A stretch of 40,527 nt of DNA from a virus. The notes under the pieces were generated by a model. It was not told the DNA's origin and did not search any database. It was given only the letters and a program-made list of their open reading frames with translations. This document shows positions 15,304 through 37,630 of this stretch, one piece after another. The stretch covers positions 1 through 40,527 of the IMG/VR virus record IMGVR_UViG_3300017735_000027; one strand, given 5' to 3'. Positions within the stretch are counted from its first letter, which is position 1; every line of letters starts with the position of its first letter. The position numbers and the translations under genes are program-made.

Positions 15304-17544
15304 ATGGCAGAGTTTAAGTTAGGTAGAATTAGATTTGTATGGAAAAGTGAGTGGACAACCGCTACTACATACTTCAAAGATGACGTTGTAGAGTACGGCG
15401 GCAAAATATATATTTGTGTAACAGGACATGATAGTTCAGCAAGTTTCTTTACTGACTTAGACATTGTACCTAGCAAGTGGAACATTATGGCCGATGGCCA
15501 AAAATGGCTAGGCGACTGGCAACCACAAACAGCATATATTAGAGATAATATTGTACGCTACGGTGCTACAGTTTATATCTGTAAAACGGATCATACATCT
15601 GCCGTTGATTCGAGTACAGGTTTAGAACCAGACATTGCTAAATGGGACGTATTTGCTACAGGATTAGATTACAAAGGCGATTGGGCTACAACATATGATT
15701 ACAAAGCAAATGACTTAGTTAAGTACGGCGGCTCAACATATGTTTGTAACACTTACCACATTAGTGCAGCAACTGATACACTAGGACTAGAAGCTGACTT
15801 ATCAAAATGGACAGTATTTAATCAAGGGTTTGATTGGAAAAATGATTGGGCGCCAAGCATACGTTATAAATTAAACGATGTTGTAAAATTTGGTGCTAGT
15901 TTATGGATTGTAAACGCTTATCATACATCACAAGCAACGTTTGCAGCAGACAGTTCAAAATGGACTAAGTTTGTTGAAGGCTTCCAATACGAAAGTGAAT
16001 GGAATGATGCAATTGGTTATCAACCAGGTGACGTTGTACAATTTGGCGGAAATAGTTATATTGCTAGAGAAGACACACTTGGTCCTAAGCCAGGCGATAG
16101 TGGCGGCGTAATTACAGGTGCATCATCAGCAGCTGAAATAGTTATTACAAGTGACTTACACGAACTTAGTAACGGCAAACAAATTAATATTACTGGTGTA
16201 GTTGGTATGACTGATCTTAATAGTTATAACTATTGGGTAGGTGCAGTAACAGCTAACACTTTTAAATTATACACAGATAGAGCATTAACAACAGCAGTTG
16301 ATTCACAGAGCTTTGGTGCATACGTATCAGGCGGTACTTGGGTAACAACAGCAACAGGAACTCCAGAATGGGACTTGTTTGCACGTGGTATGAAATTCCA
16401 AGGAGACTGGGAAGAAGATTCAACAAACAGATACTATTTACAAGGTGACACTGTACGCTTAGGCGGATACATGTATCGTTGTATATTAGGACACAGAACT
16501 CAAACTCCACCAAACACAACTTATTGGGAAAAATTAAGTACAGGTTTTGATTGGAAAGGTAATTGGGCAGATGACGCAACTTATGTATTAGGTGATGTTG
16601 TACGCTACGGTGATAACTCATATGTTTGTATACAAGGACATATTTCTGAAGGTGATGACGGTTCGTCAGGTGATCCAGATGGAACAGGCGGAATTTCTGC
16701 AGCTAATTCAAGACCAGACCAAGATACAACAGGTACATATTGGAATATTATGACAATTGGTACTGAGCAATCAGTATTAACTACAAAAGGCGACATGGTT
16801 TATTACAGTGGCGCAACTCCAGTTAGATTACCAATTGGTCAAGATGGACAAATACTTACAGTAAATTCAAATGGTGTACCAAACTGGGAATTCTTAGGAC
16901 AATCAGTAGATGTATACTATGTTGCAGAACATGGCACTGATGCACCTGCTCCGCTTTACGGAAAAAACATTGATAGACCTTACAAAAGTATTAGATATGC
17001 AGCACAGCAAGTTGAAAGAGGAACTAAAGCTAATGATGCAGCAAGATTATTAGAAATGAATAGACGCTTTATACAACGTGAAATTGTTGAGTGGACTGAC
17101 TACCAAATTGCTAATAATACAAGTCCTTTTACAAGTTCATTTAAATATGATAGTAAAAAATGCGAAAGAGACATGGGTTATATTATAGATGCATTCATTT
17201 ATGATTTAAGACATGGTGGAAATATAAAATCAAGAGAAGTTGCATTATCATATGTAACTGATCCAGGACAATTTTATGCACTAGGTCAAGAAGGCGAAAC
17301 TGTAGCTAGTATTAACTACGGTTTAACACTAATTGAAAAAGTACTACAACAAGCTGCACCAGCAGTTAACTACCAAACAACAAACGGTGATAACTCTACT
17401 AGAGTTGTACCACAATATTTTGAAACAGCACTCGGGGCACAGGATTCGGTTGTGTATGATGGAACAATAAGCGGAAGCAGTTCTGGAGGCACTTACTCAG
17501 ATGAAACACCAGAGGGCGGATATGCCGAGGGCGGAGGATACTAA
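15304..17544 (+). CDS. Fibre N-terminal half: binding repeats and start of beta-helix
   Basis: A 746-residue protein whose first residues (MAEFKLGRIRFVWKSEW) match the start of the 1858-residue fibre. It carries seven W...Y..GD(V/L)V..GG..Y.C repeats (residues about 12-490). Repeat five is interrupted at about 272-348 by a domain reading HELSNGKQINITGVVGMTDLN...VTANTFKLY, the pattern of the E1-FCCH-like domain frequent in phage proteins. TTKGDMVYY follows near 494. The beta-helix entry YYVAEHGTDAP...PYKSIRYAAQQ starts near 536, then one Cys-containing helical unit (about 580-646), then a Gly/Ser-rich tail ending EGGGY. The beta-helix is not completed here: the matching continuation (IIIPAECCIMGDELRSVNV) is at the start of the next gene. 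The two products probably assemble together. Confidence 0.8.
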   Translation: MAEFKLGRIRFVWKSEWTTATTYFKDDVVEYGGKIYICVTGHDSSASFFTDLDIVPSKWNIMADGQKWLGDWQPQTAYIRDNIVRYGATVYICKTDHTSAVDSSTGLEPDIAKWDVFATGLDYKGDWATTYDYKANDLVKYGGSTYVCNTYHISAATDTLGLEADLSKWTVFNQGFDWKNDWAPSIRYKLNDVVKFGASLWIVNAYHTSQATFAADSSKWTKFVEGFQYESEWNDAIGYQPGDVVQFGGNSYIAREDTLGPKPGDSGGVITGASSAAEIVITSDLHELSNGKQINITGVVGMTDLNSYNYWVGAVTANTFKLYTDRALTTAVDSQSFGAYVSGGTWVTTATGTPEWDLFARGMKFQGDWEEDSTNRYYLQGDTVRLGGYMYRCILGHRTQTPPNTTYWEKLSTGFDWKGNWADDATYVLGDVVRYGDNSYVCIQGHISEGDDGSSGDPDGTGGISAANSRPDQDTTGTYWNIMTIGTEQSVLTTKGDMVYYSGATPVRLPIGQDGQILTVNSNGVPNWEFLGQSVDVYYVAEHGTDAPAPLYGKNIDRPYKSIRYAAQQVERGTKANDAARLLEMNRRFIQREIVEWTDYQIANNTSPFTSSFKYDSKKCERDMGYIIDAFIYDLRHGGNIKSREVALSYVTDPGQFYALGQEGETVASINYGLTLIEKVLQQAAPAVNYQTTNGDNSTRVVPQYFETALGAQDSVVYDGTISGSSSGGTYSDETPEGGYAEGGGY
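15337..16780 (+). repeat. Seven-copy W...Y..GD.V..GG..Y.C...H repeat array (second set)
   Basis: The units begin WKSEWTTATTYFKDDVVEYGG, LGDWQPQTAYIRDNIVRYG, KGDWATTYDYKANDLVKYGG, KNDWAPSIRYKLNDVVKFG, ESEWNDAIGYQPGDVVQFGG, QGDWEEDSTNRYYLQGDTVRLGG and KGNWADDATYVLGDVVRYG. The count of seven equals that in the preceding fibre, pointing to a shared ancestral array rather than independent expansion. Unit five carries the FCCH-like insertion. Confidence 0.8.
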
Positions 17545-20500
17545 TGGCTACTAATTTTGCAACTATTTCCAGTTTAGGAAAAATAATTACAGATGCAATT
17601 ACCGCAGGTAATGCAACAAACATTCCGGCAAGAAGCATACGGAAAACATTAATTAAAGTAACAACTGGGCAATATAGAGAAGTACTACCGATTATTATTC
17701 CAGCAGAATGCTGTATAATGGGAGACGAACTTCGTTCAGTTAACGTACAACCAAGAAAGTCTACAAACTCAACACTAACTCCTAAGAGTGATTACAGATA
17801 TACAAGTAAAGCCTTAGAAAGAATTGAGCAAGTTGTTGGTAACGTAGCATCGGGTCTTACAATGACTCCAACTACAGGAAATACTTTAACACAAACAACA
17901 GCATATCCTTACGCAGAAACACCTCAAGCATGGGAAGGCTTAACACGTCAAGTACGTGGTATACGTAGAAACATCGATGCACAATTAGGCGAAAAACTTT
18001 ATGCACAATTTCCTAAGCCATGGGAAATGACAAACGCAAATGCAGGACGTGGGCGCGACTTGTTTTTACAAAATAGAGAATTTATTAAAACAGAAACTAC
18101 AGCATATATTACTGAAAACTATCCAGACTTAAAGTACAGTCGTACTAAGTGTAAACAAGATATTGGATTTATTTTAGATGCTATTGCTTATGACTTAACA
18201 TACGGTGGTAACTGGCAATCAGTTGTTGCAGGTGAAGCATATTACACAGGCGCTGTATTAGAGATTGCAGCAAGTGAAAAAGCGGCAACTATTGCTGCAT
18301 ATGGTTTCATGAAACAGTTAGTACAAACTGTACAGCGTAATATTACAGTAACACCTGTACTACAAACAGATGTAGCACAAATTGCAGGCACTGGCGGTAC
18401 AGCAAGTGAATCAACTACAATTGGTAACTTGTTCGACGATATCACAGACACAATTAACAGTGGTGTAGGAACAGTTGCAGAAGTATATCCAAGTGTTGCA
18501 GGAGCAAATGCTTTAACTTTTGCTGATACAACAGCAATTGACGCAGCAAAAGACCAAGTTGGTGAATATACAATTGACTTTATCAATAAAAACTTTGGTA
18601 GCTTCAAATATGACAGTGGCATTTGTAGACGTGACTTAGAAATACTTTCTGAAGGCGCACAGAATGATACACTTACTGGATCAAACTATCTAGCTATTCA
18701 AGCAGGTAGAGCTTACAGAAGAGAAACATCTGAATATTTACAAGGTGCACAAAAAAGTCAAACTGTTGGTGCAATTAGAAAGTTCCGTGATTTACAATTA
18801 GCTGACTTAACTGATTCAACTTATACAACACGAACAACTTCATTTTATAACGAAGTAATTGATATTTTACAAAATAGCACTACAGCTGAAGATGCATTAA
18901 CTTTTCCAAGTTACAACTCAACAGCAGATGCTGTTAAAGCTAAAAACTTATTAGTATCAAATAGACAGTTTATAATTGACGATGTAGTAAATTATGTTGA
19001 AAATACTTACAATAATCCTCCAGGATCATTTGTATATGATAGAGCACGTTGCGAAAGAGACGTAGCATTTATTGTAGACGGATTATGTCATGATATCATG
19101 TACGGCGGAAATATTGCCCAAGTACGTATTGCTAAATCATACTTTAACTTAAACGGTGCAAGTGTTATTCCAGGTGAAGCAACAGAAACTATTGCAGCAT
19201 ACGGACACTTATCAAGTGTTGCACAAGATGTTATTACTGAAGTTTCAATTACAAAACAAACTGGTAACACACAAACACAAAGTACAAATGGTAATCCTGC
19301 ATCAGCAACTGAAGAAGCATTAATTGTATCATTTATTACTGAAGTTACTAATGCTATTACAGCTGATAATCCAAACGGAATTTCAGCAATTACTGAAGTA
19401 ACAAGTACAGAAACTGGTCAAACAGCTACTGACTATGCATTGTTTGATTCAAATAGAGACGGCCATATTAAAACTACACTACAGTTTGTAACTGACACAT
19501 ATAGTGATTTCAAATTTGATCATGCTAAGTGTACAAGAGACTTAGGATTAATTTTTGATGCCGCAAAATATGATGCATTACTTGGAACAAATATTGCAAG
19601 TATTATTACAGCATTCTCATATCGTAGAAAACCTGCAAGAACAAAAGTAATTGCAGATCAGAAAGATGCAACTATTGCAGCTAATATGTTTGCTATGAGA
19701 GAAATGCAGGCAGTATTATCAAGTGAACAGTGTGAAACAAGTGTACAACTTGAAGAAACATTTGAATGGGTTAACGACACTATTTGGACAGCAAGCTATG
19801 AAGGTGCAAATAAACAAGTTGTAGATCCAGAGATTTATAATGCACAATATCAATTAGAAACTAACAAAGAATGGATTGTACAAGAAGCACTAAATGAAGC
19901 AGATGAATGTTATAAAGCAGCTGTTTCAAAAGTTGAAGCAAATGGTACAGTTACAGTTGCAGATACAAGTTGGTTATCTCCAGGAATGGGGCTTAAACTA
20001 GTTAACTACGATGATAGTACAAACGCTGTAACAGAAGCCGGCGCCGATACAGATACAACATATTATGTAAAATCTATCGAAAGTGATACAACTTTTATTG
20101 CAAGTGATACAGTTAATGGAAGTGCTTTTGCTTTTGATCCAACTGAATCATCTTTCCAATATAACAAAGCCAAATGTCGTAGAGATACTGGGTATTTCTT
20201 AGATGCTGTAGGTTATGATATTACATTAGGAACTAACTACAATGCTGTAACACAAGGTCTTGCTTATCAAAGAGCAAGTGCTAGTGTAGCAAACGGAGCA
20301 CAATTAGCTCAAACAACAGCAGGTATTAACTTTACAAAAGCTAAAGTTGCAGAACTTTACAAAGTAAGAACAAGTACAACAGGCCTATCAAGATCAAATG
20401 CATTCTTTGCAGAAATTGTTGATGTTTTAAACAATGGCGTTGGAAATGCAGATGCAATTACATATCCAGCACCAGCAGGAGCAACAGCAAACACAACTAA

Positions 20501-23500
20501 TGCTGTAGCACAACTAGGTGCTAACAGAGCATTTATGATTGCAGAAATTACAGCATGGATTGCTGTTAACTATCCTTCACTAAGTTACGATGTAGCAAAA
20601 TGTGAAAGAGATGTTGGTTATGTAATTGACGCATTGCGTTATGACATTATGTACGGTGGTACAAGTGCAAGTCATCAAGCAGCAAGAAGCTACTATGTAG
20701 ACGGAGTATACCAAGGCGGTGCTGGCGAAGGTGCAGCAACAGCGGCGGCATACGACAGACTTTCAGTAGTAACTGACGAAGTTATTAGAGAAGTTGCTGT
20801 TACAAAATCTTCAGGAAACGCAGCTAACCAAGATACATCAGGAACAGCAGCTAGTGCAACAGAAGGTACACTTTCTCAAACACTACTACAAATTATTGAA
20901 GATGTAATTACAGACGGCGACTTAGACGGCTTGCCAGCAGCAACATATCCAGATGTAAACGGTGCAACAGCAGACTTAAAAGCGGCTCAAATACAAATTA
21001 AACGTAATGCAGATGATATTGTTATTAAAACTGTAAAATATATTGATAACACATATAGTGCAATGTTTGAAGTTAAAAGTTCATATGTTTATAACAGAAC
21101 ATTGTGTGCAAGAGATGTTAGAGAATATGTATACGGAATGAAATGGGACGCTGCATATTCACGTAACTGGGCTAAAAGATATAACGCTCCGTTGGTGTCA
21201 TATGATACAAATGTATTAGCAGTTGACTACACAGGTTGGTACAGAGCAGCGTTAGGTGCAAGATACTATGCAAATAGTGTTCTTGGATCACAAGAAGAAG
21301 ATTTCTACTACTTACGTAACGGTACTGGTGTTAGATTACAAACAATGGATGGACTACAAGGCGACTTAGGTCCAGCAAACGCTTACGGTACAAGTAGACC
21401 AACAGGCGGTGCGTATGCATCACTTGATCCAGGTTGGGGACCAAAAGATGAGCGTGTATGGATTACAGCACGTTCGCCATACGTACAAAACTGTACAACA
21501 TTTGGTTATGCAGCTGTAGGACAAAAAATTGACGGCGCACTACATGATGGCGGTAACGATTCAATTGTTAGTAACGACTTTACACAAGTTATTAGTGATG
21601 GTATTGGAGCATGGTTGCTTAACAATGGTAGAGCAGAACTTGTGTCAGTGTTTACATACTACTCACATATTGGGTACTTGTGTGAAACAGGCGGAAGAGC
21701 TCGTGCTACAAACGGTAACAACTCATACGGTACATACGGTTCAGTTGCAGAAGGAGTCGATCCAGATGAAACTCCAGTAACAGCAGTTGTAGACAACTCA
21801 ACACAATACAACGCTACAATAAGCAACGTATTTACAGATACTGACGCAATACAACGTTTAGAATATTCACATGCAGGTAATGATTATACTGAAGCAAATA
21901 TTAATATATTTGGCGCAGGAGATGATGAATCATTATTAGCAGATGAATTTAGAGACGGCGCAATAAACAGAATCCAAATTGGTGAAACAATTGAATCACC
22001 TAGTAACGCTGGTGGTACAAACTATACTATCGTATCAAACACAGCGCAGGCTGGAACATTAACAAGTATTAACTTAGCAGCTACAGACGGTAGTATTTCA
22101 AGTGCTTATGTTGGTATGGCAATTTACATCACAGGTGGTGCAGGTACTGGTAACTATGGTTACATTACATCATACAACTCAGGAAGTAAATTAGCAAATG
22201 TTAGTAACAGATATGGAGTTTCAGGATTTAGTCATGTAGTTCCAGGAACAACTATTGTTGCTCCAAACAGTTCTTCAACATATCAAGTTGAACCAAGAGT
22301 TACAATTCCGGCTCCGGCCAATGCTGTAGCAACTGTACAAACTATTGCAACTGACGATTTTAACAACATTGAATTTGTTGAAACAGCAAACACATATGCA
22401 GGTGTTGCAAGTGAATCAAACAGTGACGGTAGCGGTGCAACATTTAATGTTACACGTAACGGTGCAAAATATTATGTAACTGTTGCAAGTGGCGGTAAGG
22501 AATTTACTAGACTATCAACAGTAACTATCAAAGGCGGATTGCTAGGCGGTACAGATGTAGACAACGATATAGTTGTTACAATTACAACAGTTAATGCATC
22601 TGGTGCAATAGTTGACTTTGATTTTGATGGTATTGGACGTAAAGGATACTTTATTGCACTAGCAGATGGTAACTTCTACACAAGTATAGACGGTACTACA
22701 GCAGCAAGTTGGACAGCAATTACTAAAACAGGTGATCACCAAAACATAGCAAGTGCATTATTAAATGACGGTTCAAGTACAGCTAAACCTCATGCAGCAG
22801 TGGCAACTAGAGTAAGCTCAAATGTTGTTAGTGTAAGTGTTGATGATGCATTAGGTACATGGGCAGACAAGACACTTAGCGGTTTAACAGCAGGTACAGC
22901 AATGAATGTTGCAACAGGTTATATTGCATTAGGAACAAATAGATTTGTTGTTACATCAAACTCAGATCAAGATGTTGCTTATTCAGATGATGGTGGAACA
23001 AACTGGTCAACATATTCAACAGCATTACCAGGAACTGGTTATGATTGTTTAACATATGGTAAAGGTTTATTTGTTGCACTTGATTCAGGAAGCACAAATG
23101 CTGTTACATCACCAACAGGTGAAACATGGACAACAGTGACACTTCCTAATAGTAAAACATGGATTGACGTAGTTTGGGGTAACGGAATATTTGTTGCACT
23201 AGCAAGCGACACAGGTGCTAACAACATGGCACACAGTATAGACGGAACAAATTGGGTTGCAGCAAGCACTCCAAATGCAACAGCTACACCAAGTGGTATT
23301 GCATACGGACAAGGTGTATTTGTAATTACATACAGCGACGATGAAACAGTAATAGCTGAGTCGTTTGATGGAGTTAAATGGACTGAAGTTACTGGCTTAA
23401 CTGATATAGGTGAGAAAATAGCGTTTGGTAATCCACATACAATTGGCGCAACAACACCAATAGGTAGATTTGTAAGTGTTGATGATACAAGTAATACAGC

Positions 23501-24566
23501 AAAAACAATTTACAGAGGAGCTCCTGCATTAGGTAGAGCAGGTGTTGCTAACCAGAAAATATTTGAAATTAGAATGACAGAACCAGGATCAGGATACGAA
23601 GGTGCAGCACCTACTATTACAGTTACAGATCCAGGAAACATTGAAGATGTTGTACTAGTTCCAAAAATTAGAAATGGCGCATTAGCTAACCCAACATTTA
23701 TTAACAGAGGTACTAGCTTTATTACAGCTAGTGCAGAAGTTGATGGTCCAACATCAAACGGTGGCGCAGACTTTACACAAAGTGGACAGTTTGTTGCAGT
23801 TAGAAGATTAAGTGCAACACCAGTAAACGGTTCAAACGTTGAGTTTGACAGCTTACCAGGACAGTTCTTTAAACTAGTTAACACAGTTTCACTAGTAGGA
23901 CTTAACGATGGTTCTAAAACAGCGTTCTTACAATTATCACCAGACATGAGTATTACAGATGCTCCAGTAGATGGTAATCCAGTAACAATGCGTATTAGAT
24001 TTAGTCAAGTACGTCTAACAGGACACGACTTCTTAGATATTGGTACAGGAGGATTTACAACTACTAATTACCCTGGCATACCAACTATAGCACCAGACCA
24101 AGCTAAAGAAACCAAAGACGACAATGGCGGAAGAGTGTTCTTTACAGCTACTGACCAAGATGGTAACTTTAGAGTTGGTGACTTGTTTAGTATTGAACAG
24201 GCAACTGGTGTTGCGACATTGAATGCTGAAGCGTTCAACATTGCAGGACTACAAGAACTATCACTAGGTGAAGTTACACTAGGTGGTAACTCTGCAAGTA
24301 TTAGTGAATTTAGTACAGACCCGTTCTTTACAGCTAATAGTGACACAGTAGTACCAACACAGAGAGCAGTGAAAGCATACATTGAAGCCCAAATTGGTGG
24401 CGGTGGTGCTACACTAAACGTTAACAGTGTAACAGCTGGTGACATATTCGTCAACACTAATCAAATTACAACGGTTAGTGGAGAACAGATAAATATAAAA
24501 GCAAATGTAAACTTCACAGGTAGCGTACTTGGTTTACCAATGGCATACAATTACTTTTTAAGATAA
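17544..24566 (+). CDS. Giant fibre C-terminal half: helical-repeat array, beta-propeller, fibre tip
   Basis: A 2340-residue protein whose ATG overlaps the previous stop (TAATG), with GGAGG at 17532-17536 as ribosome binding site. Residues about 50-69 (IIIPAECCIMGDELRSV) complete the beta-helix motif begun in the previous gene. Residues about 172-1210 hold seven units of the form N(R/K)xFIxxExxxYxxxxYxxFxYDxxKCxRDxGxIxDAxxYDxxxGxN. The block RPTGGAYASLDPGWGP begins near 1290. Asp-box-type propeller repeats occupy about 1698-1990 (YSDDGGTNW, HSIDGTNW, ESFDGVKW). The end carries GSGY-type strands, GHDFLDIGTGGF (about 2160), NGGRVFFTATDQDGNFRVGDLF (about 2194) and VPTQRAVKAYIE. Everything after the helical array parallels the 1858-residue fibre. 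It is probably a very large distal receptor-binding fibre. Confidence 0.85.
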   Translation: MATNFATISSLGKIITDAITAGNATNIPARSIRKTLIKVTTGQYREVLPIIIPAECCIMGDELRSVNVQPRKSTNSTLTPKSDYRYTSKALERIEQVVGNVASGLTMTPTTGNTLTQTTAYPYAETPQAWEGLTRQVRGIRRNIDAQLGEKLYAQFPKPWEMTNANAGRGRDLFLQNREFIKTETTAYITENYPDLKYSRTKCKQDIGFILDAIAYDLTYGGNWQSVVAGEAYYTGAVLEIAASEKAATIAAYGFMKQLVQTVQRNITVTPVLQTDVAQIAGTGGTASESTTIGNLFDDITDTINSGVGTVAEVYPSVAGANALTFADTTAIDAAKDQVGEYTIDFINKNFGSFKYDSGICRRDLEILSEGAQNDTLTGSNYLAIQAGRAYRRETSEYLQGAQKSQTVGAIRKFRDLQLADLTDSTYTTRTTSFYNEVIDILQNSTTAEDALTFPSYNSTADAVKAKNLLVSNRQFIIDDVVNYVENTYNNPPGSFVYDRARCERDVAFIVDGLCHDIMYGGNIAQVRIAKSYFNLNGASVIPGEATETIAAYGHLSSVAQDVITEVSITKQTGNTQTQSTNGNPASATEEALIVSFITEVTNAITADNPNGISAITEVTSTETGQTATDYALFDSNRDGHIKTTLQFVTDTYSDFKFDHAKCTRDLGLIFDAAKYDALLGTNIASIITAFSYRRKPARTKVIADQKDATIAANMFAMREMQAVLSSEQCETSVQLEETFEWVNDTIWTASYEGANKQVVDPEIYNAQYQLETNKEWIVQEALNEADECYKAAVSKVEANGTVTVADTSWLSPGMGLKLVNYDDSTNAVTEAGADTDTTYYVKSIESDTTFIASDTVNGSAFAFDPTESSFQYNKAKCRRDTGYFLDAVGYDITLGTNYNAVTQGLAYQRASASVANGAQLAQTTAGINFTKAKVAELYKVRTSTTGLSRSNAFFAEIVDVLNNGVGNADAITYPAPAGATANTTNAVAQLGANRAFMIAEITAWIAVNYPSLSYDVAKCERDVGYVIDALRYDIMYGGTSASHQAARSYYVDGVYQGGAGEGAATAAAYDRLSVVTDEVIREVAVTKSSGNAANQDTSGTAASATEGTLSQTLLQIIEDVITDGDLDGLPAATYPDVNGATADLKAAQIQIKRNADDIVIKTVKYIDNTYSAMFEVKSSYVYNRTLCARDVREYVYGMKWDAAYSRNWAKRYNAPLVSYDTNVLAVDYTGWYRAALGARYYANSVLGSQEEDFYYLRNGTGVRLQTMDGLQGDLGPANAYGTSRPTGGAYASLDPGWGPKDERVWITARSPYVQNCTTFGYAAVGQKIDGALHDGGNDSIVSNDFTQVISDGIGAWLLNNGRAELVSVFTYYSHIGYLCETGGRARATNGNNSYGTYGSVAEGVDPDETPVTAVVDNSTQYNATISNVFTDTDAIQRLEYSHAGNDYTEANINIFGAGDDESLLADEFRDGAINRIQIGETIESPSNAGGTNYTIVSNTAQAGTLTSINLAATDGSISSAYVGMAIYITGGAGTGNYGYITSYNSGSKLANVSNRYGVSGFSHVVPGTTIVAPNSSSTYQVEPRVTIPAPANAVATVQTIATDDFNNIEFVETANTYAGVASESNSDGSGATFNVTRNGAKYYVTVASGGKEFTRLSTVTIKGGLLGGTDVDNDIVVTITTVNASGAIVDFDFDGIGRKGYFIALADGNFYTSIDGTTAASWTAITKTGDHQNIASALLNDGSSTAKPHAAVATRVSSNVVSVSVDDALGTWADKTLSGLTAGTAMNVATGYIALGTNRFVVTSNSDQDVAYSDDGGTNWSTYSTALPGTGYDCLTYGKGLFVALDSGSTNAVTSPTGETWTTVTLPNSKTWIDVVWGNGIFVALASDTGANNMAHSIDGTNWVAASTPNATATPSGIAYGQGVFVITYSDDETVIAESFDGVKWTEVTGLTDIGEKIAFGNPHTIGATTPIGRFVSVDDTSNTAKTIYRGAPALGRAGVANQKIFEIRMTEPGSGYEGAAPTITVTDPGNIEDVVLVPKIRNGALANPTFINRGTSFITASAEVDGPTSNGGADFTQSGQFVAVRRLSATPVNGSNVEFDSLPGQFFKLVNTVSLVGLNDGSKTAFLQLSPDMSITDAPVDGNPVTMRIRFSQVRLTGHDFLDIGTGGFTTTNYPGIPTIAPDQAKETKDDNGGRVFFTATDQDGNFRVGDLFSIEQATGVATLNAEAFNIAGLQELSLGEVTLGGNSASISEFSTDPFFTANSDTVVPTQRAVKAYIEAQIGGGGATLNVNSVTAGDIFVNTNQITTVSGEQINIKANVNFTGSVLGLPMAYNYFLR
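18072..21175 (+). repeat. Array of Cys-containing helical repeats (seven units)
   Basis: Units start near 18072, 18550, 18958, 19449, 19861, 20521 and 21006. Each ends with a K/R-C-x-R-D...D(A/G)xxxDxxxGxN signature: KCKQD, ICRRD, RCERD, KCTRD, KCRRD, KCERD, LCARD. Two subtypes can be read. Type A (YGGN, then an AxYG or AAYD stretch) occurs at 18072, 18958 and 20521. Type B (TGSN or LGTN, then an AYxR stretch) occurs at 18550, 19449 and 19861. The last unit is degenerate. An additional type A unit lies at 17057-17222 in the upstream gene. Unit 19861 contains an inserted beta domain of about 80 residues. Confidence 0.75.
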
Positions 24567-24581: not shown

Positions 24582-24902
24582 ATGGCAACAGGAATATTAG
24601 GAACAGCAGATTTAAGTGCAGCGGCAAACACCACTGTGTATACTGTACCTGCGGATACATTTGCAGTTGTAACTGTTAATGTAACAAATAGAAACACAGC
24701 ATCAAGAGATGTAAGGGTAGCAATATCAGCTGCTGGTACACCAACTAATGCTGAATATTTAGAATTCGATACCGAATTACTAGGAAATGGTAGTCTAGAA
24801 CGAGGCGGAATAGTGTTAGATGCAACTAAAAATGTTGTAGTATATTCTAATAGTACTGACGTAAATGTTGTAGTGTATGGTATAGAAACAGCAACAGCAT
24901 AA
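24582..24902 (+). CDS. Small beta-sandwich structural protein, family copy 3
   Basis: A 106-residue protein after a good ribosome binding site (acggag). The strand plan TVYTVPADTFAVVTVNVTNRNTASRDVRVAISA, FDTELLGNGSLERGGIVLDATKNVVVYSNSTDVNVVVYGIE parallels the proteins at 1889-2224 and 8926-9255. It follows the giant fibre, as copy 2 follows the second beta-helix fibre, so the pairing of fibre and small protein is consistent. A GATAAATA box at 24488-24495, inside the preceding gene, could serve as its late promoter. A cap or adaptor role is inferred only. Confidence 0.7.
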   Translation: MATGILGTADLSAAANTTVYTVPADTFAVVTVNVTNRNTASRDVRVAISAAGTPTNAEYLEFDTELLGNGSLERGGIVLDATKNVVVYSNSTDVNVVVYGIETATA

Positions 24903-24912
24903 AGGAGCAGAC

Positions 24913-25614
24913 ATGCGCAGAATTAACACAGGAACAGTTGGAAGACCTCTACTAGCACGATTAGTGAGTGTTGACAACAAACTATCAAGTCTTGTTCCGA
25001 ATGAAAATATTACCATTGAACCAAATGGATCAGGTGATGTTGTTATCCCAGCAGGCCCTCAGTTACTAGTACAAAATACTACACAAAGTACAACTACAGC
25101 AACAGGTGGACTAATACTTGATGGTGGTATAGGTGTAGCTAAAAATGCTTATGTTGGTGGCGCTATAAATGTCGCAGGAACGCTAACATCACAATATTTA
25201 ACAGCATCAGCATCAACGCATATGACAATACCTCAGGGTACAACTGCACAACGCCCCGGCTCTCCGTCCGAAGGCTTTGTAAGGTTTAACACTGATTATG
25301 GTCATTTAGAATGGTACAATGGTTCAAGTTGGACAGTAGGTGGATTTCAAAACATTGCTGTTACAGGTGGAAGAACAACATTAAGTTGGCAAACAAACTG
25401 GGTACAAGGTAACCACACAGTTACACTACCAAGTTCGCCAGCACAAGGTGATAGAGTTAGATTTTTCTTAGTAAGTGGATCAAACTTTACAGTAGCACGT
25501 AACGGTAAACTAATTAACGGTGATTCGTCTAACCTAACAGTTACTACAGAAGATGCAGCGTTTGAAATGGTGTTCCACAATAACACCTACGGATGGCGTA
25601 TCTTTACAATCTAA
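24913..25614 (+). CDS. Short tail-fibre protein
   Basis: A 233-residue protein. The N-terminus MRRINTGTVGRPLLARLVSVDNKL is followed by the fibre motif QSTTTATGGLILDGGIGVAKNAYVGGAINV (about 55-88), then the module IPQGTTAQRPGSPSEGFVRFNTDYGHLEWYNGSSW (about 107-141). The last 90 residues form a beta-rich tip (TTLSWQTNW, HTVTLPSSPAQGDRVRFFLV, AAFEMVFHNNTYGWRIFTI) typical of small phage-fibre caps. The ATG follows aaaggagcag. It immediately precedes the three Cys/Gly-rich genes, so it may be the stalk on which one of those proteins sits. This is inference. Confidence 0.75.
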   Translation: MRRINTGTVGRPLLARLVSVDNKLSSLVPNENITIEPNGSGDVVIPAGPQLLVQNTTQSTTTATGGLILDGGIGVAKNAYVGGAINVAGTLTSQYLTASASTHMTIPQGTTAQRPGSPSEGFVRFNTDYGHLEWYNGSSWTVGGFQNIAVTGGRTTLSWQTNWVQGNHTVTLPSSPAQGDRVRFFLVSGSNFTVARNGKLINGDSSNLTVTTEDAAFEMVFHNNTYGWRIFTI

Positions 25615-25629: not shown

Positions 25630-26412
25630 ATGGCAACTTACGATAGTTATAAAAAAGTTACAAGTGAGCAAATCATTGATGGCACAGTTACCGAAGATAA
25701 AATGGGAACTGGGGTTCGTCATAGACTTTGTACTAAGTGGCTAATCGGTGATGCATGTCGTTGTTCATCAGGTTGCTGTTGTTTATGGACTGCGCCAGGT
25801 TGTACTAGAAAAGTACAATTCGAATTATGGGCGTCAGGCGGCAATGGTAGTGGTGCTTGTTCTTGTAACAGATGTCATCATTTCCAGGGCGCAGGCGGCG
25901 GCTCTTATAACCAAAAATCAATTACTACAGCACCAGGTTGCACATATAGAATGTGTGCAGGCGGAGTGTACAGATGTTTGAGTAGAAACTGTTCTTCTTG
26001 TAATGGATGTATTTCATATGTTTGCGGATACAACGCTTGTAACCTATGTACAGTAGGCGGACGTTGCGGCAATGCTAACACAGACTGGTCAAACTATTGT
26101 TTCAGTTGTTGGGGTTGTTGTATTGGACCAGGATGCGGTACAGGTAGAGGACAAATGCACATCATGAGTCACATTGGTGTGTTTACAGGAATTTACAACT
26201 GTCACTGTCACCATCAGTATATGAGACCAACGGCAGCACCAATGTTAGGTGGTAACGTTTCACAAGGTATATCAGTATGTTGGGTACGTTGCGGTTGTTG
26301 GATTGCACCTCCAGGACACGGTGGACAAAGTGCTCAATCAACTTATTGTGGTCGTTGTTGCGGTCAAGGCGGAACAGGTGGTCCAGGAGTAGTAAAATTA
26401 ACATTTACGTAA
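25630..26412 (+). CDS. Cys/Gly-rich virion-type protein, copy 1 (33 Cys)
   Basis: A 260-residue protein with 33 cysteines by hand count. The N-terminal 30 residues (TYDSYKKVTSEQIIDGTVTEDKM) resemble a fibre attachment segment. The remainder follows the outline of a phage glycine-rich tip domain: an entry strand LWTAPGCTRKVQFELW leading to SGGNGSG, and an exit GQGGTGGPGVVKLTFT. Cys replaces many loop positions: CRCSSGCCC, CSCNRCHH, GCTYRMC, VYRCLSRNCSSCNGC, CHCHH, CWVRCGC, YCGRCCG. His residues flank several of them. No signal peptide is present. It could be a disulfide-locked adhesin or a metal-binding tip. The identity of the underlying glycine-rich family is recalled, not searched. The track start ATG is supported by aggagc eight bases upstream. 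Confidence 0.75.
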   Translation: MATYDSYKKVTSEQIIDGTVTEDKMGTGVRHRLCTKWLIGDACRCSSGCCCLWTAPGCTRKVQFELWASGGNGSGACSCNRCHHFQGAGGGSYNQKSITTAPGCTYRMCAGGVYRCLSRNCSSCNGCISYVCGYNACNLCTVGGRCGNANTDWSNYCFSCWGCCIGPGCGTGRGQMHIMSHIGVFTGIYNCHCHHQYMRPTAAPMLGGNVSQGISVCWVRCGCWIAPPGHGGQSAQSTYCGRCCGQGGTGGPGVVKLTFT

Positions 26413-26422
26413 GGAATTATTA

Positions 26423-27202
26423 ATGGCAAGTTATGCAAGTTATAAAAAGGTACACGGCGACCAAATGGTTAATGGAACATTAACCGATAATGATATTAAT
26501 TCAAATACATTAAATAATTATGGTGTAAAATGGATATCAGGTGTACCTTGCAGATGTAGCGGCGGTTGCTGTTGCAACTGGACTGTACCTACTGGAGTAT
26601 GCAGATTAACTGTAGACTTATGGGGAGCTGGAGGCAATGGCTCAGGTTCATGTTCGTGTAACAGATGTCATCACTTTAAAGCAGCCATGGGCGGAAGTCA
26701 TAATACCAAAACATTAGGCACAAGACCGGGCTGTACATACAGTTTATGTGCTGCTGGCGTATATAGATGTTTAAGTAGAGAATGTGTAGGATGTAACGGA
26801 TGTACAACTTATGCAAATGGATATAACATGTCAGGCTTTTGTGCTTGCGGTGGTTACAGAGCTGAAGCAAATACTTCATGGTCAACGGCTTGTTTCTATA
26901 CAAATGCATATTGTAGATGTCCAACACACAACAATGGCGAAATGTATGTTGTTCCAAACAATCCAGGATGGTCAACAGCGTCAGGATACTGTCATTGTCA
27001 TACACAAGAAATACACCAAGGTGTTGCACCAATTATTGGGGGAATAAGTACACAAGGCATTAGAGAATGTTGGATACGTTGTGGTAACTTTAGTGTACCA
27101 TACGGAACTGGCGGACAAAGTGCAATGAATACTTATTGCGGACGTTGCTGTGGCCAAGGCGGCACTGGAGGCGGCGGCTTAATTAGAGTAACATATATTT
27201 AG
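26423..27202 (+). CDS. Cys/Gly-rich virion-type protein, copy 2 (27 Cys)
   Basis: A 259-residue paralogue of the previous gene, ten bases downstream, with aaggaatt as ribosome binding site. It keeps the N-terminal MASYASYKKVHGDQMVNGT segment, CRCSGGCCC, WTVPTGVCRLTVDLWGAGGNG, CSCNRCHHF, GCTYSLCAAGVYRCLSREC, CHCH, CWIRCG and YCGRCCGQGGTGG. It has the fewest Cys of the three (27): the Cys before residue 35 is absent, and the Cys-rich central variable region is thinner. The exit strand is GGGGLIRVTYI. The variable centre (about residues 140-205) differs most between copies, which is where a receptor-contacting surface would be expected. Confidence 0.75.
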   Translation: MASYASYKKVHGDQMVNGTLTDNDINSNTLNNYGVKWISGVPCRCSGGCCCNWTVPTGVCRLTVDLWGAGGNGSGSCSCNRCHHFKAAMGGSHNTKTLGTRPGCTYSLCAAGVYRCLSRECVGCNGCTTYANGYNMSGFCACGGYRAEANTSWSTACFYTNAYCRCPTHNNGEMYVVPNNPGWSTASGYCHCHTQEIHQGVAPIIGGISTQGIRECWIRCGNFSVPYGTGGQSAMNTYCGRCCGQGGTGGGGLIRVTYI

Positions 27203-27210
27203 GAACAAAA

Positions 27211-28020
27211 ATGGCAAGTTATAGAAGTTATAAAAAAGTTACAGGAGCACAAATAGCTGACGGGGCAGTTGATACTAACAGCCTGGCGGCAGGAGTGAGA
27301 GACAACTGGTGCGTGAAATGGACATGGGGAAATCCGTGTAGATGTTCAGCAGGATGTTGTTGTCTATGGACAGTACCTAGTCAAGTACGTAACTTAAACT
27401 TTGAACTATGGGGTGCTGGCGGAAACGGAGCAGGAGCATGCTCATGTAACAGATGTCAACACTTTGGACCTCCAGGCGGCGGAGCATACACAAGTAAATC
27501 TATAACTTCAACAGCCGGTTGTACATATAGAATGTGTGCAGCAGGTGTTTATAGATGTTTAAGTAGAGAGTGTAACGGCTGTAATGGTTGTTCATCATTT
27601 GTATGCGGTGCAGGACTTTGTGTTTGTGCATGCGGCGGACAAAGAGGTTGTGCAAACGGTTCTTGGACAGATTCATGTTATTCAAGTATGCCATATTGTG
27701 TTCGACCAGGATGTAACGGTACAAGTGCAAGTGGAGACTATGTAGGTTATACACACGGTGGTAACTTCCAAGGTGCTTCATCATATATGTATCCAGGTGG
27801 TGCTTGTCACTGTTGGAAACACATAGGACACTCAACAGGTGCTGTAGGACTTAATACAGGTTCACCTGAACAAAACTCAAACTACTGCTGGATACGTTGT
27901 GGTTGCTGGATAGCACCATACGGGCAAGGTGGTCAAAGTGCAACATCAAACTATTGCGGTAGATGCTGTGGCCAAGGTGGCACAGGCGGACCGGGATTAG
28001 TCAAACTAACTTTTTACTAA
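27211..28020 (+). CDS. Cys/Gly-rich virion-type protein, copy 3 (31 Cys)
   Basis: A 269-residue paralogue, eight bases after the previous stop. It begins MASYRSYKKVTGAQIADGAV and holds 31 cysteines: CRCSAGCCC, CSCNRCQHF, GCTYRMCAAGVYRCLSREC, CVCACGG, CHCW, CWIRCGCW, YCGRCCGQGGTGG. The exit strand is GPGLVKLTFY. At least about 21 Cys positions align across all three copies by eye. It is the longest copy, with extra residues in the central variable region (about 165-205; GYTHGGNFQGASSYMYPGG). A late-promoter-like double box lies directly downstream, so this gene closes the Cys-rich block. Confidence 0.75.
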   Translation: MASYRSYKKVTGAQIADGAVDTNSLAAGVRDNWCVKWTWGNPCRCSAGCCCLWTVPSQVRNLNFELWGAGGNGAGACSCNRCQHFGPPGGGAYTSKSITSTAGCTYRMCAAGVYRCLSRECNGCNGCSSFVCGAGLCVCACGGQRGCANGSWTDSCYSSMPYCVRPGCNGTSASGDYVGYTHGGNFQGASSYMYPGGACHCWKHIGHSTGAVGLNTGSPEQNSNYCWIRCGCWIAPYGQGGQSATSNYCGRCCGQGGTGGPGLVKLTFY

Positions 28021-28056: not shown

Positions 28057-28785
28057 ATGCCAATGATACAATTTAACTACACTTATAACGTTCCAAACGA
28101 ACTATGTGTAGACCATACTTTTACTGATGGAAATACAAGAACAGCTCAGTATGACGGACCTGATAAACTTTTCTTCATTGTAAACAATGCTACAAACAGA
28201 GAAGAATTAGGACCTATCACAGAGATTGAAAAAAACGACGGAAGACCAATTCCAGATGATTGCAGATATGTAGAAATAGATTGCACAGAACATCCAGAAC
28301 TGTGTCAATTACGTGGGCCGGTAGTTGATGAAATGGAAGAAGATCATACTGGTGAAGCAACACCAACAGGAGCAACTAAGATTACAGGATATGCAGGATT
28401 TACATATCAAACACCTGTGCTACCATATCAGTTTTTACATGATGATCAAGTAACATTTGCCGAAGATGGCACACCAACTATTCCAGTCAAAGAACCTAGA
28501 GATTATATTATGGGTGTTGATGTTGGAAGAGACATTACTTGGGATGATGTTAGAGCAAAACGTAATCAATTCTTAAAAAATAGTGATAGTGAAATCACTG
28601 ATGATATGCCTGCAGCACTGAGAACAGAGTGGGAAACATATCGTCAACGACTACGTGACTGGCCAACAGTAATGCAAAATGCAAATGTTCCGCCAATAAT
28701 GGCGTACTATATGGAACCAATTCAAGTTGGTGCAGATCCAGAAACAGGAATGATTGATCCAGACTCAGATTCAATCGTAATGTAG
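28057..28785 (+). CDS. Probable tail-fibre assembly chaperone
   Basis: A 242-residue protein. The C-terminal part (about 168-208) reads ITWDDVRAKRNQFLKNSDSEI, then WETYRQRLRDWP. This is the recognisable core of the phage tail assembly chaperone family (VRxxRNxxLxxSD...WxxYRQxLRDxP; Pfam family Phage_tail_APC), usually found beside tail-fibre genes. The N-terminal 150 residues are less familiar: an acidic, beta-rich region with CRYVEIDCTEHPELCQ. In this class the N-terminus often contacts the fibre and the C-terminal motif is conserved. Its position right after the fibre and Cys-rich genes suggests it assists folding or trimerisation of one of them. It has its own late-type promoter box and is followed by a terminator. 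Confidence 0.75.
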   Translation: MPMIQFNYTYNVPNELCVDHTFTDGNTRTAQYDGPDKLFFIVNNATNREELGPITEIEKNDGRPIPDDCRYVEIDCTEHPELCQLRGPVVDEMEEDHTGEATPTGATKITGYAGFTYQTPVLPYQFLHDDQVTFAEDGTPTIPVKEPRDYIMGVDVGRDITWDDVRAKRNQFLKNSDSEITDDMPAALRTEWETYRQRLRDWPTVMQNANVPPIMAYYMEPIQVGADPETGMIDPDSDSIVM

Positions 28786-28913: not shown

Positions 28914-29936
28914 TTGACAAGATCTACAGCATTTTTTATTAACGGCGGAGCAGGAAGAGTGATATGTTCCTTGCCAGCATTTGAACTATATGAAAAAGAA
29001 AATCCAGACGATGACTTTATCATTGTATGTGAAGGTGGTATGGACTTTTATAAAGGACATCCTACTCTACACAATAGAGCATATGACCATTGGCATAAAG
29101 GATTATTTGAAGAACATATCAAAGATAGAAATTGTGTAACACCAGAACCATATAGGGTTTGGGAATATTACAATCAAAAATGTGATTTAGCACAAGCATT
29201 TGATATTGATATTAATAACAAAGGATTACGTAAAGTTGGTGATCCAAAAATATATGCTAACAAGCAAGAAATTGTACAAGCTGCAACCATTGTTGAAGAA
29301 ATAAAACAAGGTACTGGTAAAGATAAAGTATTAGTAGTACAGCCATTTGGAAGAACAACCGAAACACACGGCGACTTTATTGTAGATCCAACTAGTAGAA
29401 GTTTTCAACTAAACAATATTGTAGATATTATTAACATACTAAAAAAAGAATACGCAATAATTATAATGAGCGAAATCCCAGTTCCGCTAGAAGAAACAGA
29501 AAATAAACAATATCCAGTAGCACAGCCACAAATACCAGATCTACGTATTTGGTCAAGTGTAATTGATGTAGCTGATCACTTTTTAGGATGTGATAGTTTG
29601 GGACAACATATGGTAAAAGCGTTAGGCGGAAGTGCAACTATTATAACAGGATCAACATATCCTATTAATATTTCTTACCCAGATGATCCTAAGTTTGATA
29701 TTATAGACGTAGGTGACGGGAAACGTGTATATGCGCCAATACGTTTAACTATGGAAGAAGAACAAGATAGACACAACGATGAAGTTATGGAACTAACAAC
29801 AAAACAAATAGATGAAATTTGTAATAGTGTAAGAAAACATTTAGGCAAAGGTGCAACAACAAAAGTACCTGAAACTAAAAAACAAATGTCTAAACTAGTA
29901 CCAGGAAATGCAAATTTAGTTGGAGATAAAAAATAA
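28914..29936 (+). CDS. GT9-like glycosyltransferase, possible heptosyltransferase
   Basis: A 340-residue protein with a TTG start, fixed by AAGGAG at 28901-28906 seven bases upstream and the absence of a better ATG. The N-terminus FFINGGAGRVICSLPAFELY matches the GxGD-like opening of GT9/heptosyltransferase proteins. Late in the chain, DHFLGCDSLGQHMVKALGGSATIITGST mirrors the F-x-G-x-DSGxxHxAxAxGxxxxxLxG-T nucleotide-sugar site of that family. The length fits the family (about 320-350). The C-terminal 40 residues are Lys-rich. The canonical DSG reads DSL here, so activity or donor may differ. Transfer of heptose from ADP-heptose is inferred from the HldE, HldD and GmhB genes downstream. Its stop overlaps the next start by one base. 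Confidence 0.65.
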   Translation: MTRSTAFFINGGAGRVICSLPAFELYEKENPDDDFIIVCEGGMDFYKGHPTLHNRAYDHWHKGLFEEHIKDRNCVTPEPYRVWEYYNQKCDLAQAFDIDINNKGLRKVGDPKIYANKQEIVQAATIVEEIKQGTGKDKVLVVQPFGRTTETHGDFIVDPTSRSFQLNNIVDIINILKKEYAIIIMSEIPVPLEETENKQYPVAQPQIPDLRIWSSVIDVADHFLGCDSLGQHMVKALGGSATIITGSTYPINISYPDDPKFDIIDVGDGKRVYAPIRLTMEEEQDRHNDEVMELTTKQIDEICNSVRKHLGKGATTKVPETKKQMSKLVPGNANLVGDKK

Positions 29937-31741
29937 TGAGTCAATGGATTGCTGCAATTACAAGAGGACACAACGGAGGCGTATGTTTACTAAAAGATGG
30001 CGAAATTGTATTTGCTATTGAAGAAGAAAGATTAAGTAGACAAAAATATGATGGCGGTCCTTATGCGGCTATGGTTAAAATTTTAGATTACACTGACAAG
30101 ATTGATTTTTTAGTTATTGCACATACTCAACCAGTTTCAGAAACAGCAGGCAAAGTAGACTTTACAGGAGACGATGTCTATACAGGACTTGCACGTAAAC
30201 TAGGACTAATTGATAATAGTCCAAGCATAGATGTATTAAATCATCCACAAGTAGTTGACCTAAGTCATATACATCATAAACTACATGCCGCATGTGCATT
30301 TTACAGAAGCGGATTTGAAACAGCAACAGCAGTTATTGTTGACGGCGCTGGTACATTTATTCCTACACAAATGGACGGCTGGGATAATATGTTATACGAA
30401 TTAGAAAGTATTTTTACATGTGAATACCCATATAATATAAAAACTATCTGGAAACACTTAGGTGGCAATGGCCCATTCAGAGCTGCATATGTTCCTAATA
30501 TGACTAGTGAAAAGTTTGATGAAGAAGGCACACACGAAGTTATTATTGATGACGGAGCAGGCATTGTTAAAGCATACGAAGCTGTAACACAGTATTGCGG
30601 ATTTAGTGCAATCGAAGCAGGTAAAACTATGGGATTATCACCGTATGGCAAACCTAATGCTAATATTCCTCCTTTATATCATAAAGCTGGCGGAGATTGG
30701 ACCGTAGCAAATGCTAACTTAATTAGGCCAACTTATCCAAATGGTGCTTTAGTAAATGAAAACTTTTTTAAAGAATTACACACACCAGAAGGAACAATGC
30801 AAGACAAACTTGTTGATCTCGAAAATAGAAGAGATTTAGCATATGCATTACAAAGTGAAAGTCAAGAACAAGTACTCAAATTAATTTTAGATGCTGTAGA
30901 ACGTACAGGCAATAAAAACGTTGTAGTAAGTGGCGGTTATGGACTTAACTGTGTTGCTAATTATTACTATTTAGACACCTTAAAAGATATGGATATTAAT
31001 TTATATGTTGAGCCAGTATCTAGTGATGCAGGAACAGCAATTGGTGCAGCATTTATTGCATATCATCAAACATCGCAAAATAAAGAAGTACTACCATTTG
31101 GTGAAAGTTTATATTTAGGTTTGCCTTGTGATTATACAAGCGAACAAATAACTGCAACAGCTGAAAAATATAATGCTACGCTAGAAACAACAGATGTAGA
31201 ATCAGTTGTAAAACTTATGTGCGATAAAAATATTGTAGCAATGTTTCAAGGACGTTCAGAATCAGGACCACGTGCATTAGGTAACAGAAGTCTTATGTAC
31301 GATCCAACAGATCCTAACGGTAAAGATCATGTCAACAAAGTTAAACGTAGAGAATACTTCCGTCCGTTTGCTGGTACTATATTAGCAGAACATGCAGAAG
31401 AATGGTTTGACATGCGTGGAATGAAAGAATCACCGCATATGATGTATGCAATGAATTGCCAACCAGGCATTGGTGAAAAAATTCCTAGTATTATACATGT
31501 TGACGGCACATGCCGTATACAAACAGTAACAAGAGAACAGAATCCATTATACTATGACTACATTAATGAATTCTATAAACAGACAGGTGTTCCTATTATA
31601 TTCAACACATCATTTAACTTAGGCGGAGAACCTTTAGTTGAAACATTAGATGATGCTTTTAGAACTCTTGCTAATAGTGACATTGAATATCTGTACATAG
31701 CAGAACACGGAATTTTAGCAAAGGTAGAAAATGTTAGTTAA
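29936..31741 (+). CDS. NodU/CmcH-family O-carbamoyltransferase
   Basis: A 601-residue protein, full length for the family. It shows the ASKHA-like opening ITRGHNGGVCLLKDGEIVFAIEEERLSRQK, the HxxHHKLHAACAFYRSGF metal/YrdC-type His cluster (about 101-117), GLSPYGKP (about 231-240), VVSGGYGLNCVANYYY (about 330), SSDAGTAIGAAF, and the C-terminal carbamoyltransferase block QGRSESGPRALGNRSLMYDP with REYFRPFAGTIL. These enzymes move a carbamoyl group from carbamoyl phosphate through carbamoyl-AMP to a sugar or antibiotic hydroxyl. Here the acceptor is probably the glycan made by the neighbouring genes. It overlaps the upstream gene by one base and the downstream gene by 11 bases, so it is tightly co-translated. 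Confidence 0.92.
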   Translation: MSQWIAAITRGHNGGVCLLKDGEIVFAIEEERLSRQKYDGGPYAAMVKILDYTDKIDFLVIAHTQPVSETAGKVDFTGDDVYTGLARKLGLIDNSPSIDVLNHPQVVDLSHIHHKLHAACAFYRSGFETATAVIVDGAGTFIPTQMDGWDNMLYELESIFTCEYPYNIKTIWKHLGGNGPFRAAYVPNMTSEKFDEEGTHEVIIDDGAGIVKAYEAVTQYCGFSAIEAGKTMGLSPYGKPNANIPPLYHKAGGDWTVANANLIRPTYPNGALVNENFFKELHTPEGTMQDKLVDLENRRDLAYALQSESQEQVLKLILDAVERTGNKNVVVSGGYGLNCVANYYYLDTLKDMDINLYVEPVSSDAGTAIGAAFIAYHQTSQNKEVLPFGESLYLGLPCDYTSEQITATAEKYNATLETTDVESVVKLMCDKNIVAMFQGRSESGPRALGNRSLMYDPTDPNGKDHVNKVKRREYFRPFAGTILAEHAEEWFDMRGMKESPHMMYAMNCQPGIGEKIPSIIHVDGTCRIQTVTREQNPLYYDYINEFYKQTGVPIIFNTSFNLGGEPLVETLDDAFRTLANSDIEYLYIAEHGILAKVENVS

Positions 31742-32372: not shown

Positions 32373-32887
32373 TGCGACACGAAATCTTTAGTGTTCCTGT
32401 ATTCATAGACACTGTTGATTTAGAAAAAATTAACATAAGTGATGAAGAAACTGAGCCAACATGGCTTAGCGAAACACCTAGTACATTTACAAAAGAACAT
32501 AAAATTGCACCCGAAACATTTGAATATCTAGTAAGCATTATTTCAAAAAACTTAGAACATTTAGTTGGACCTAATCCAAGATTTGGACCTATATGGCGTA
32601 ACAAGTATAAAGAAACAGATTGGCAAGATATACACATACACCCAAATAGTGCTTGGAGTTTTGTAATATATGAAACTGTTGAAGAATCAAAAACTGTGTT
32701 TATGAATCCTATGTTTAAAGATATACAAAATCATTTAGGCACAAACGTTGAAGGGTTTCCTTTAGATTTTAGACCAGAATTAAAAACAGGAGATATAATT
32801 ATATTTCCTAGTTTCTTAGAACATTATGTACGACCAGGATCTGTTGGAGCAACTATTAGTGGTAACATATATATGGACTACGAATGA
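32372..32887 (+). CDS. 2OG-Fe(II) oxygenase-like protein (HxH type), copy 1
   Basis: A 171-residue protein of the phage/marine-bacterial putative 2OG-Fe(II) oxygenase class. Candidate ligands are H88 and H90 (QDIHIHPNSAWSFVIYE) and H151 (FPSFLEHYVRP). The usual final R-x-S-x-S-x-N strand reads VGATISGNIYM, with no Arg at the expected place, so 2-oxoglutarate binding may be altered. The block LKTGDIIIFPSFLEH is diagnostic of the family. It is joined to the previous gene by a one-base overlap and to hldE by an ATGA overlap (32884-32887). Confidence 0.7.
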   Translation: MRHEIFSVPVFIDTVDLEKINISDEETEPTWLSETPSTFTKEHKIAPETFEYLVSIISKNLEHLVGPNPRFGPIWRNKYKETDWQDIHIHPNSAWSFVIYETVEESKTVFMNPMFKDIQNHLGTNVEGFPLDFRPELKTGDIIIFPSFLEHYVRPGSVGATISGNIYMDYE

Positions 32888-34528: not shown

Positions 34529-34537
34529 GGGATTAAC

Positions 34538-37629: not shown

Positions 37630-37630
37630 A

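Follow-up and report, generated by a model that had tools for sequence, protein, structure and literature searches.

The window analysed here is a 40.5-kb virus record (IMG/VR record IMGVR_UViG_3300017735_000027, 40,527 nucleotides, probably a fragment) in which three consecutive genes encode cysteine-rich and glycine-rich proteins, here named A, B and C, that appear to be a genuine and conserved variant, seemingly undescribed so far, of glycine-rich fibre tips. The trio is read here, with a probability just over one half (about 0.52), as the distal-tip fibre subunits of a T4-like marine phage, which would be folded by a chaperone and stapled by disulfides after lysis. The computed basis of this reading consists of fold resemblance, gene context and cysteine conservation, from which we infer the attachment through an N-terminal tag, the contact with the receptor, the folding by a Tfa-like protein and the disulfides themselves. 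The genes and the tag are located as follows:

25630..26412, + strand: cysteine-rich, glycine-rich candidate tip protein A (slot 1), 260 amino acids (aa), 33 Cys; matches PHROG 4205 (E-value, E, 3.5e-38) and is placed in the slot tree
26423..27202, + strand: cysteine-rich, glycine-rich candidate tip protein B (slot 2), 259 aa, 27 Cys; matches PHROG 4205 (E 6.1e-46) and has Gly, not Cys, in alignment column 34
27211..28020, + strand: cysteine-rich, glycine-rich candidate tip protein C (slot 3), 269 aa, 31 Cys; modelled structure, matching the Pam3 fibre
25630..25659, + strand: N-terminal tag of protein A, resembling the tags of B (26423-26452) and C (27211-27240)

Fibre tips determine which cells a phage infects, and a tip domain with about thirty cysteines, nineteen of them nearly invariant in the family of the window proteins, arranged in ordered trios, is a design of which no description was listed in literature searches covering open-licence papers. 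The ordered trios recur in T4-like phages that have diverged widely, isolates from Synechococcus and Prochlorococcus among them; they make it possible to test whether the tips of marine phages are hardened by redox chemistry or loaded with metal, and whether a heterotrimeric tip is built. They also suggest what a PHROG without assigned function may do and link this PHROG to a sugar-modification cassette.

Fold and cysteine skeleton of the trio

PHROG 4205, whose function is unknown, matches all three proteins over their full length (E 3.5e-38 to 6.1e-46). Protein C was modelled with AlphaFold2 from 45 sequences (predicted local distance difference test, pLDDT, 72.9; predicted template modelling score, pTM, 0.71) and the top PDB match of the model in Foldseek is the fibre of phage Pam3 (7ypx, E 1.6e-7, template modelling score, TM-score, 0.52), followed by the Bxb1 tail tip and then by the ALK/LTK glycine-rich domains; VIA aligns 195 residues to 7ypx_A with a Z of 17.6 and a root-mean-square deviation of 2.9. 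In BFVD the relatives of S-CAM3 and P-SSM2 come first and are followed by glycine-rich or collagen-like proteins of phages and giant viruses. An earlier note on this DNA had proposed that the cysteines are set on a known phage scaffold, the glycine-rich tip domain; this inference is supported, since the model best matches the receptor-recognising tip of Pam3, Gly_rich_2 (PF21722) is found in homologues and Cys-poor Gly_rich_2 domains are found in relatives. Sequence searches of the PDB gave no convincing relative, and a search of seven array proteins with NCBIfam produced a single match, a meaningless one at E 5.4.

The match with the Pam3 fibre gp24 (7ypx, 7yfw) covers residues 31-269 of the model, and a TNF-like plus glycine-rich domain is present in both; in the available text of the Pam3 paper the receptor-recognising TNF-like/glycine-rich tip is bound by the chaperone gp25 and its loops stack about 5 A apart (PMC9608196). 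A fibre chaperone is likewise common to the two systems, gp25 acting on gp24 and a Tfa-like gene adjoining the trio here. However, gp24 is one protein that forms a homotrimer, whereas three genes are found here; as far as the available text describes it, gp24 has a long N-terminal helical bundle, whereas the trio has a short tag and, in the N-terminal region of the protein C model, helices that are all short (4-6, 12-14 and 22-24), and Gly is 39% of the Pam3 tip domain vs 16 to 18% over the whole trio proteins. The words "cysteine" and "disulfide" are absent from the main text of the same paper (PMC9608196), whereas Cys is 10 to 13% of the trio.

Pfam Gly_rich_2 has the entry strand in common with the trio, which is much richer in Cys, and the glycine-rich (TG) domain of ALK/LTK, an animal receptor domain matched with Z 8 to 10, has the fold alone in common. 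The polyglycine adhesin gp38 of the Salmonella phage S16 and of T2 is encoded by a separate tip gene. It is a glycine-rich fibre-tip protein, as the trio would be, according to the S16 gp38 comparison in the available text of the Pam3 paper (PMC9608196); gp38 is not among the Foldseek and VIA matches listed, which would not exclude likeness.

The Gly_rich_2 cut-off of 24.3 bits is passed by array proteins of S-SSM7 (28.7, 25.6 and 23.5 bits, the last reaching 25.1 with its neighbours in frame), by one gene of Sf-FS3 (25.2 bits; a second gene misses it at 17.3) and by one array protein each of S-CAM1, S-CAM3 and the loci L130 and L135, several other array proteins tested alongside these last ones being below it. 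Full-length identity to the window proteins is 52 to 56% at the best-matching places of S-SSM7 and Sf-FS3. P-SSM2 (PSSM2_126) and the contig of the window-related locus L020 carry Gly_rich_2 domains in which about one Cys was counted by eye; the Cys density is therefore a trait of this branch and not of the fold or of the genome.

The hand counts of 33, 27 and 31 cysteines in 260, 259 and 269 residues, given in the earlier note, agree exactly with the translated open reading frames (ORFs). The common skeleton that it described is also present, with 24 columns shared by all three proteins in the MAFFT alignment rather than about 21, and its motifs are found, with the difference that the entry strand of the first protein reads LWASGGNG and the exit strand of the second GGGGLIRVTY. 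Pairwise identity among the paralogues is 128/258, 149/259 and 132/258 (about 50 to 57%) and their composition, over the whole proteins, is 10 to 13% Cys and 16 to 18% Gly, while 29 other window genes that were counted have 0 to 4.1% Cys. Among 375 family members of at least 200 aa, collected with a profile grown from a window protein, the Cys content ranges from 4.4 to 12.7% (median 10.3%) and the first protein of the window is among the highest.

Conservation was evaluated on 111 distinct full-length proteins, obtained from 128 by removing a truncated one (locus L032) and identical copies. The Cys skeleton is kept in these homologues, with 19 columns at 0.99 or more; the 29 Cys-majority columns have a mean conservation of 0.916, below that of Trp only, and every Cys of the window is retained in comparison with six close loci (L001, L003-L007) despite a synonymous divergence (dS) of 0.3 to 1.8. 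Chance or compositional bias was considered and ruled out, given the Cys content of the 29 other genes and the Cys-poor Gly_rich_2 domains of related genomes; judged from these sequences, the Cys density is held by selection. Residues 151-225 have a mean conservation of 0.50 to 0.65, and residues 16-30 are more variable (0.39). Larger and extended forms also occur: a 488-aa family member with 46 Cys is found in L121 and L123 (6988-8454), and an extra Cys-bearing C-terminal tail, YCSCW followed by two more Cys, is found in the slot-2 proteins of L047, L048, L050, L053, L063, L075, L084 and L103, whereas the slot-1 and slot-3 proteins of those eight loci showed none.

Gene order, tags and the possible composition of the tip

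Exactly three Cys-rich genes are present in about 95 of the 99 complete loci (96 by script, with L127 corrected by eye because it holds more Cys-rich ORFs than the profile caught); the 99 loci include near-identical contigs, five duplicate loci having been removed beforehand. The exceptions found by script are the P-SSM2 types L046 and L055, with two genes, and L125, with four. Locus L128, which does not count as complete, carries five tandem Cys-rich genes with 36, 33, 37, 33 and 21 Cys.

The slot tree was built on 29 diverse representatives of 116 triplets (87 rows, the three rows of L127 included), with a profile derived from Cys-rich queries. On this tree 13 changes account for the gene-order labels (1, 2 and 3), vs 41.7 in shuffles, and 0 of 200 shuffles were as low; inside the large S-CAM-type clade the slots are old. 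The window/SSM7, L130/L135 and L132/L133/L136 groups have each their own set, therefore triads arose repeatedly or were homogenised. As regards the slot correspondence between the window and SSM7, an earlier tree joins slot 2 of both lineages (support 1.0), while the 29-triad tree instead joins window slots 2 and 3 (support 89).

In most lineages the paralogues share an N-terminal tag, which is like MASYxSYKKV in the window/SSM7 group and LRxLL in the S-CAM group. Mean within-genome tag scores are 36.0 in the window clade, 18.5 in the S-CAM clade and 10.7 and 10.4 in others, vs 5.6 to 6.1 between clades; the within-genome score is only 3.8 in the L130/L135 group, which departs from this pattern. 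Tags that are alike within a genome and differ between clades suggest docking to one partner, and those of A, B and C are presumably a shared docking peptide. The ratio of nonsynonymous to synonymous substitution (dN/dS) of the three genes against nine loci is 0.06 to 0.21, which indicates purifying selection.

Three interchangeable homotrimeric tips, able to widen or switch the host range, would agree with the variable segment 151-225, with paralogues that are only about 50 to 57% identical and with the frequent diversification of receptor-binding genes; this alternative is nonetheless unlikely in view of the few changes of the slot labels in comparison with shuffles, the low dN/dS against nine loci, the nearly constant number of exactly three genes and the tags common within most lineages. 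The earlier note had seen in the triplication with a variable centre a sign of host-range diversification: the centre is indeed variable, but a recent diversification is unsupported because of the stable gene-order slots and the purifying selection.

A, B and C could also be the three chains of one obligate heterotrimeric tip, with disulfides both within and between chains, much as C1q is built of its chains A, B and C; this proposal is tentative and the odds are against it, but the trio arrangement makes it one to be taken seriously. It would explain the near-constant three genes, the stable slots, the ordered triads in several clades and the tag common to paralogues in most, although not all, lineages. 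In addition, column 34 is Cys in 42/42 slot-1 and 39/43 slot-3 proteins and Gly in 43/43 slot-2 proteins, as a staple between A and C would require.

Disulfides, metal and other possible roles of the cysteines

In the preferred reading, A, B and C would be the receptor-contacting distal-tip subunits of one tail fibre, each with a TNF-like plus glycine-rich domain of the Pam3 fibre kind behind a short N-terminal tag and folded by the Tfa-like protein encoded downstream. Cys residues would be located at many loop positions, and lysis into oxygenated water would determine the formation of disulfides between neighbouring loops. The spacing of about 5 A between the Pam3 loops fits typical disulfide geometry. 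The stapled loops would give a rigid and resistant tip whose variable outer part contacts the host. A precedent for tail disulfides is the Agrobacterium phage Milano, which in the available text of its description has disulfide cross-linked tail proteins that need reduction (PMC10811340); these are other proteins, and the Cys content reported there for the structural proteins of Milano is 2.1% vs 10 to 13% in the trio.

Columns 141 and 162 never both hold Cys and never both lack it in 111/111 proteins, the exchange corresponding to two events on one of the trees; gene conversion between B and C was discarded as its cause, no locally raised identity being found. In slot 1 of 21 window-type loci, columns 132 and 137 were gained as a pair, being both Cys in 9 and both non-Cys in 12. 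Each of these co-change observations rests on very few evolutionary events, and the coupled changes, like the slot pattern of column 34, weakly favour, as far as alignments can tell, cysteines acting in pairs.

Several points weigh against disulfide-stapled fibre tips. The confidence of the protein C model is moderate, as its TM-score to Pam3 indicates; the window's own proteins match no Pfam family at E<=1 and give 0 Gly_rich_2 (PF21722) matches in G000, hhalign of the A2 profile against Cys-poor Gly_rich_2 domains gave weak results (Prob 52% and 7.5%), and the fold search with the model of the Tfa-like protein gave no significant PDB match, which speaks neither for nor against a fold like that of Pam3 gp25 or of Mu Tfa. 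As regards pairing, the 29-triad tree joins the two groups switched at columns 141 and 162 (support 89), therefore one exchange may suffice, and an odd Cys number is found in 61/111 proteins, so that purely intramolecular pairing leaves free thiols; the CCC runs and the invariant CHC suit metal equally. Phage assembly takes place in the reducing cytosol. DsbA was not found in nine related records, where the search controls were positive, and glutaredoxins are present in 6/9 of them. Finally, no virion proteomics was found for a trio-bearing phage; the available text of Sullivan et al. 2010 includes the S-SSM7 genome, and the virion proteome measured there is that of S-SM1 (PMC3037559).

The same fibre-tip proteins could instead use the Cys residues and the invariant CHC to bind metal, for example zinc, copper or an iron-sulfur centre, generating a metal-loaded tip. 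CHC is found in 128/128 homologues with its His invariant, CCC is invariant too, Cys counts of either parity are compatible with metal, and a ligand that has moved would likewise account for the 141/162 exchange. The second and third proteins have CxC at about double its shuffle mean (nominal p about 0.035), and the first does not; however, the remaining spacings are near the shuffle expectation, with CC as expected from composition and CxxC of the first protein at 7 vs 4.1 expected (nominal p 0.09), and domain-family searches of the array proteins gave no match to a metal-binding family. On balance a metal-loaded tip is doubtful. Its iron version, which the earlier note had advanced in analogy with marine phage tails, is unsupported by the motif HxH, which the available text of PMC11705849 connects with iron in T4 gp37 and in marine phages, HxH being unconserved and present in only 51/128 homologues.

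Both the unusual Cys content and the failure to find virion proteomics would also be compatible with a secreted or intracellular factor that works while the cell is infected, for instance by buffering metal or redox state; the fibre-tip fold and the position of the genes between the fibre genes and the fibre chaperone gene nevertheless make a non-virion role quite improbable.

The cassette, its spread and the rest of the window

The genes that surround the trio are listed below:

17544..24566, + strand: giant tail fibre protein, 2340 aa, presumably the fibre shaft; phrog_9851, 4527 and 5342, tail fiber
24582..24902, + strand: 106-aa fibre-associated protein, the usual upstream cassette member; phrog_11338, tail fiber, E 4.4e-13
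24913..25614, + strand: 233-aa protein just upstream of the trio, weakly fibre/virion-like; PHROG matches mostly of unknown function
28057..28785, + strand: Tfa-like tail fibre assembly chaperone, 242 aa; PF16778 Phage_tail_APC (31 bits vs a cut-off of 26.6), phrog_9740 and tail fibre assembly PHROGs
28914..29936, + strand: T4-GC 302 family protein, cassette member; phrog_8954, unknown function
29936..31741, + strand: NodU-type carbamoyltransferase, cassette member; PF16861 and PF02543 above cut-off, NodU model below its cut-off

In the usual order of the cassette, the fibre gene comes first, then the genes of the 106-aa protein and of another small protein, then the three Cys-rich genes and after them those of the Tfa-like chaperone, the heptosyltransferase-like protein and the carbamoyltransferase. 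The sole PDB match of the A5 chaperone profile is 2kz6 (E 8e-4). The T4-GC 302 family protein is perhaps heptosyltransferase-like, judging from its orthologues in L112, L128 and L130, which have weak GT9/heptosyltransferase matches below the cut-offs; the window protein itself has no such match. The 106-aa protein has a distant match (33%) to a tail fiber-like gene of the Acidithiobacillus phage AcaML1. Promoters and terminators near the trio genes were not above shuffles.

A first scan gave 40 IMG/VR loci, and full-length matches were found in four isolate records, namely S-SSM7 (two), S-SSM6a and Sf-FS3; P-SSM2, S-CAM1 and S-CAM3 have distant Cys-rich genes at the same cassette place, and PHROG 35878, also of unknown function, which together with PHROG 4205 contains S-CAM and P-SSM2 proteins, shares with it the cassette position of the trio. 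A scan with a DNA pattern not requiring Cys, in which 600 stretches were listed and the best 80 of 313 relatives were used, gave at least 76 loci, four of them on contigs already in the set; owing to this selection and to the Cys-rich queries, Cys-poor relatives may be underrepresented. In the genome collection three loci (L137, L138 and L139) were found, on contigs of metagenome-assembled genomes labelled Actinomycetota, Rhodobacteraceae and Flavobacteriales, which carry the phage cassette and are therefore probably misbinned phage DNA. T4-type gp23 is present in 11/20 records tested, the window's own record being without it, and psbA in 1/6 and 1/17 records checked.

With neighbour genes scored as present anywhere in the locus, the Tfa-like gene is found in 98/99 and the 106-aa gene in 84/99 complete loci, and the heptosyltransferase-like gene and the carbamoyltransferase are both found in 86/88 loci with at least 3.5 kb downstream. 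These two enzymes may alter the receptor of the tip, giving superinfection exclusion, or glycosylate the fibre. Their near-constant presence would also agree with Cys residues that serve as glycosylation or other modification sites; this is very improbable, because the same enzymes fit the modification of host surface glycans and the Cys conservation seems far denser than such sites would need.

Some further features of these regions can be mentioned. L130, L132, L133 and L136 have two Tfa-like genes, one between Cys-rich genes 1 and 2 and one after the third, and in S-SSM7 the coding sequence SSSM7_117 (L041 16542-16871), possibly annotated in error, overlaps the third Cys-rich gene. In the window, two fibre-region proteins upstream (9691-15267 and 15304-17544) have five and seven matches to the carbohydrate-binding module CBM_5_12. 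Downstream, 31731-38200 is, by its predicted gene products, an oxygenase-rich sugar-modification cluster: five 2-oxoglutarate (2OG)-Fe(II) oxygenase genes (starts 31731, 32372, 34010, 35843 and 37631) alternate with heptose kinase/adenylyltransferase-like, epimerase and cupin genes, and a HAD gene comes after them.

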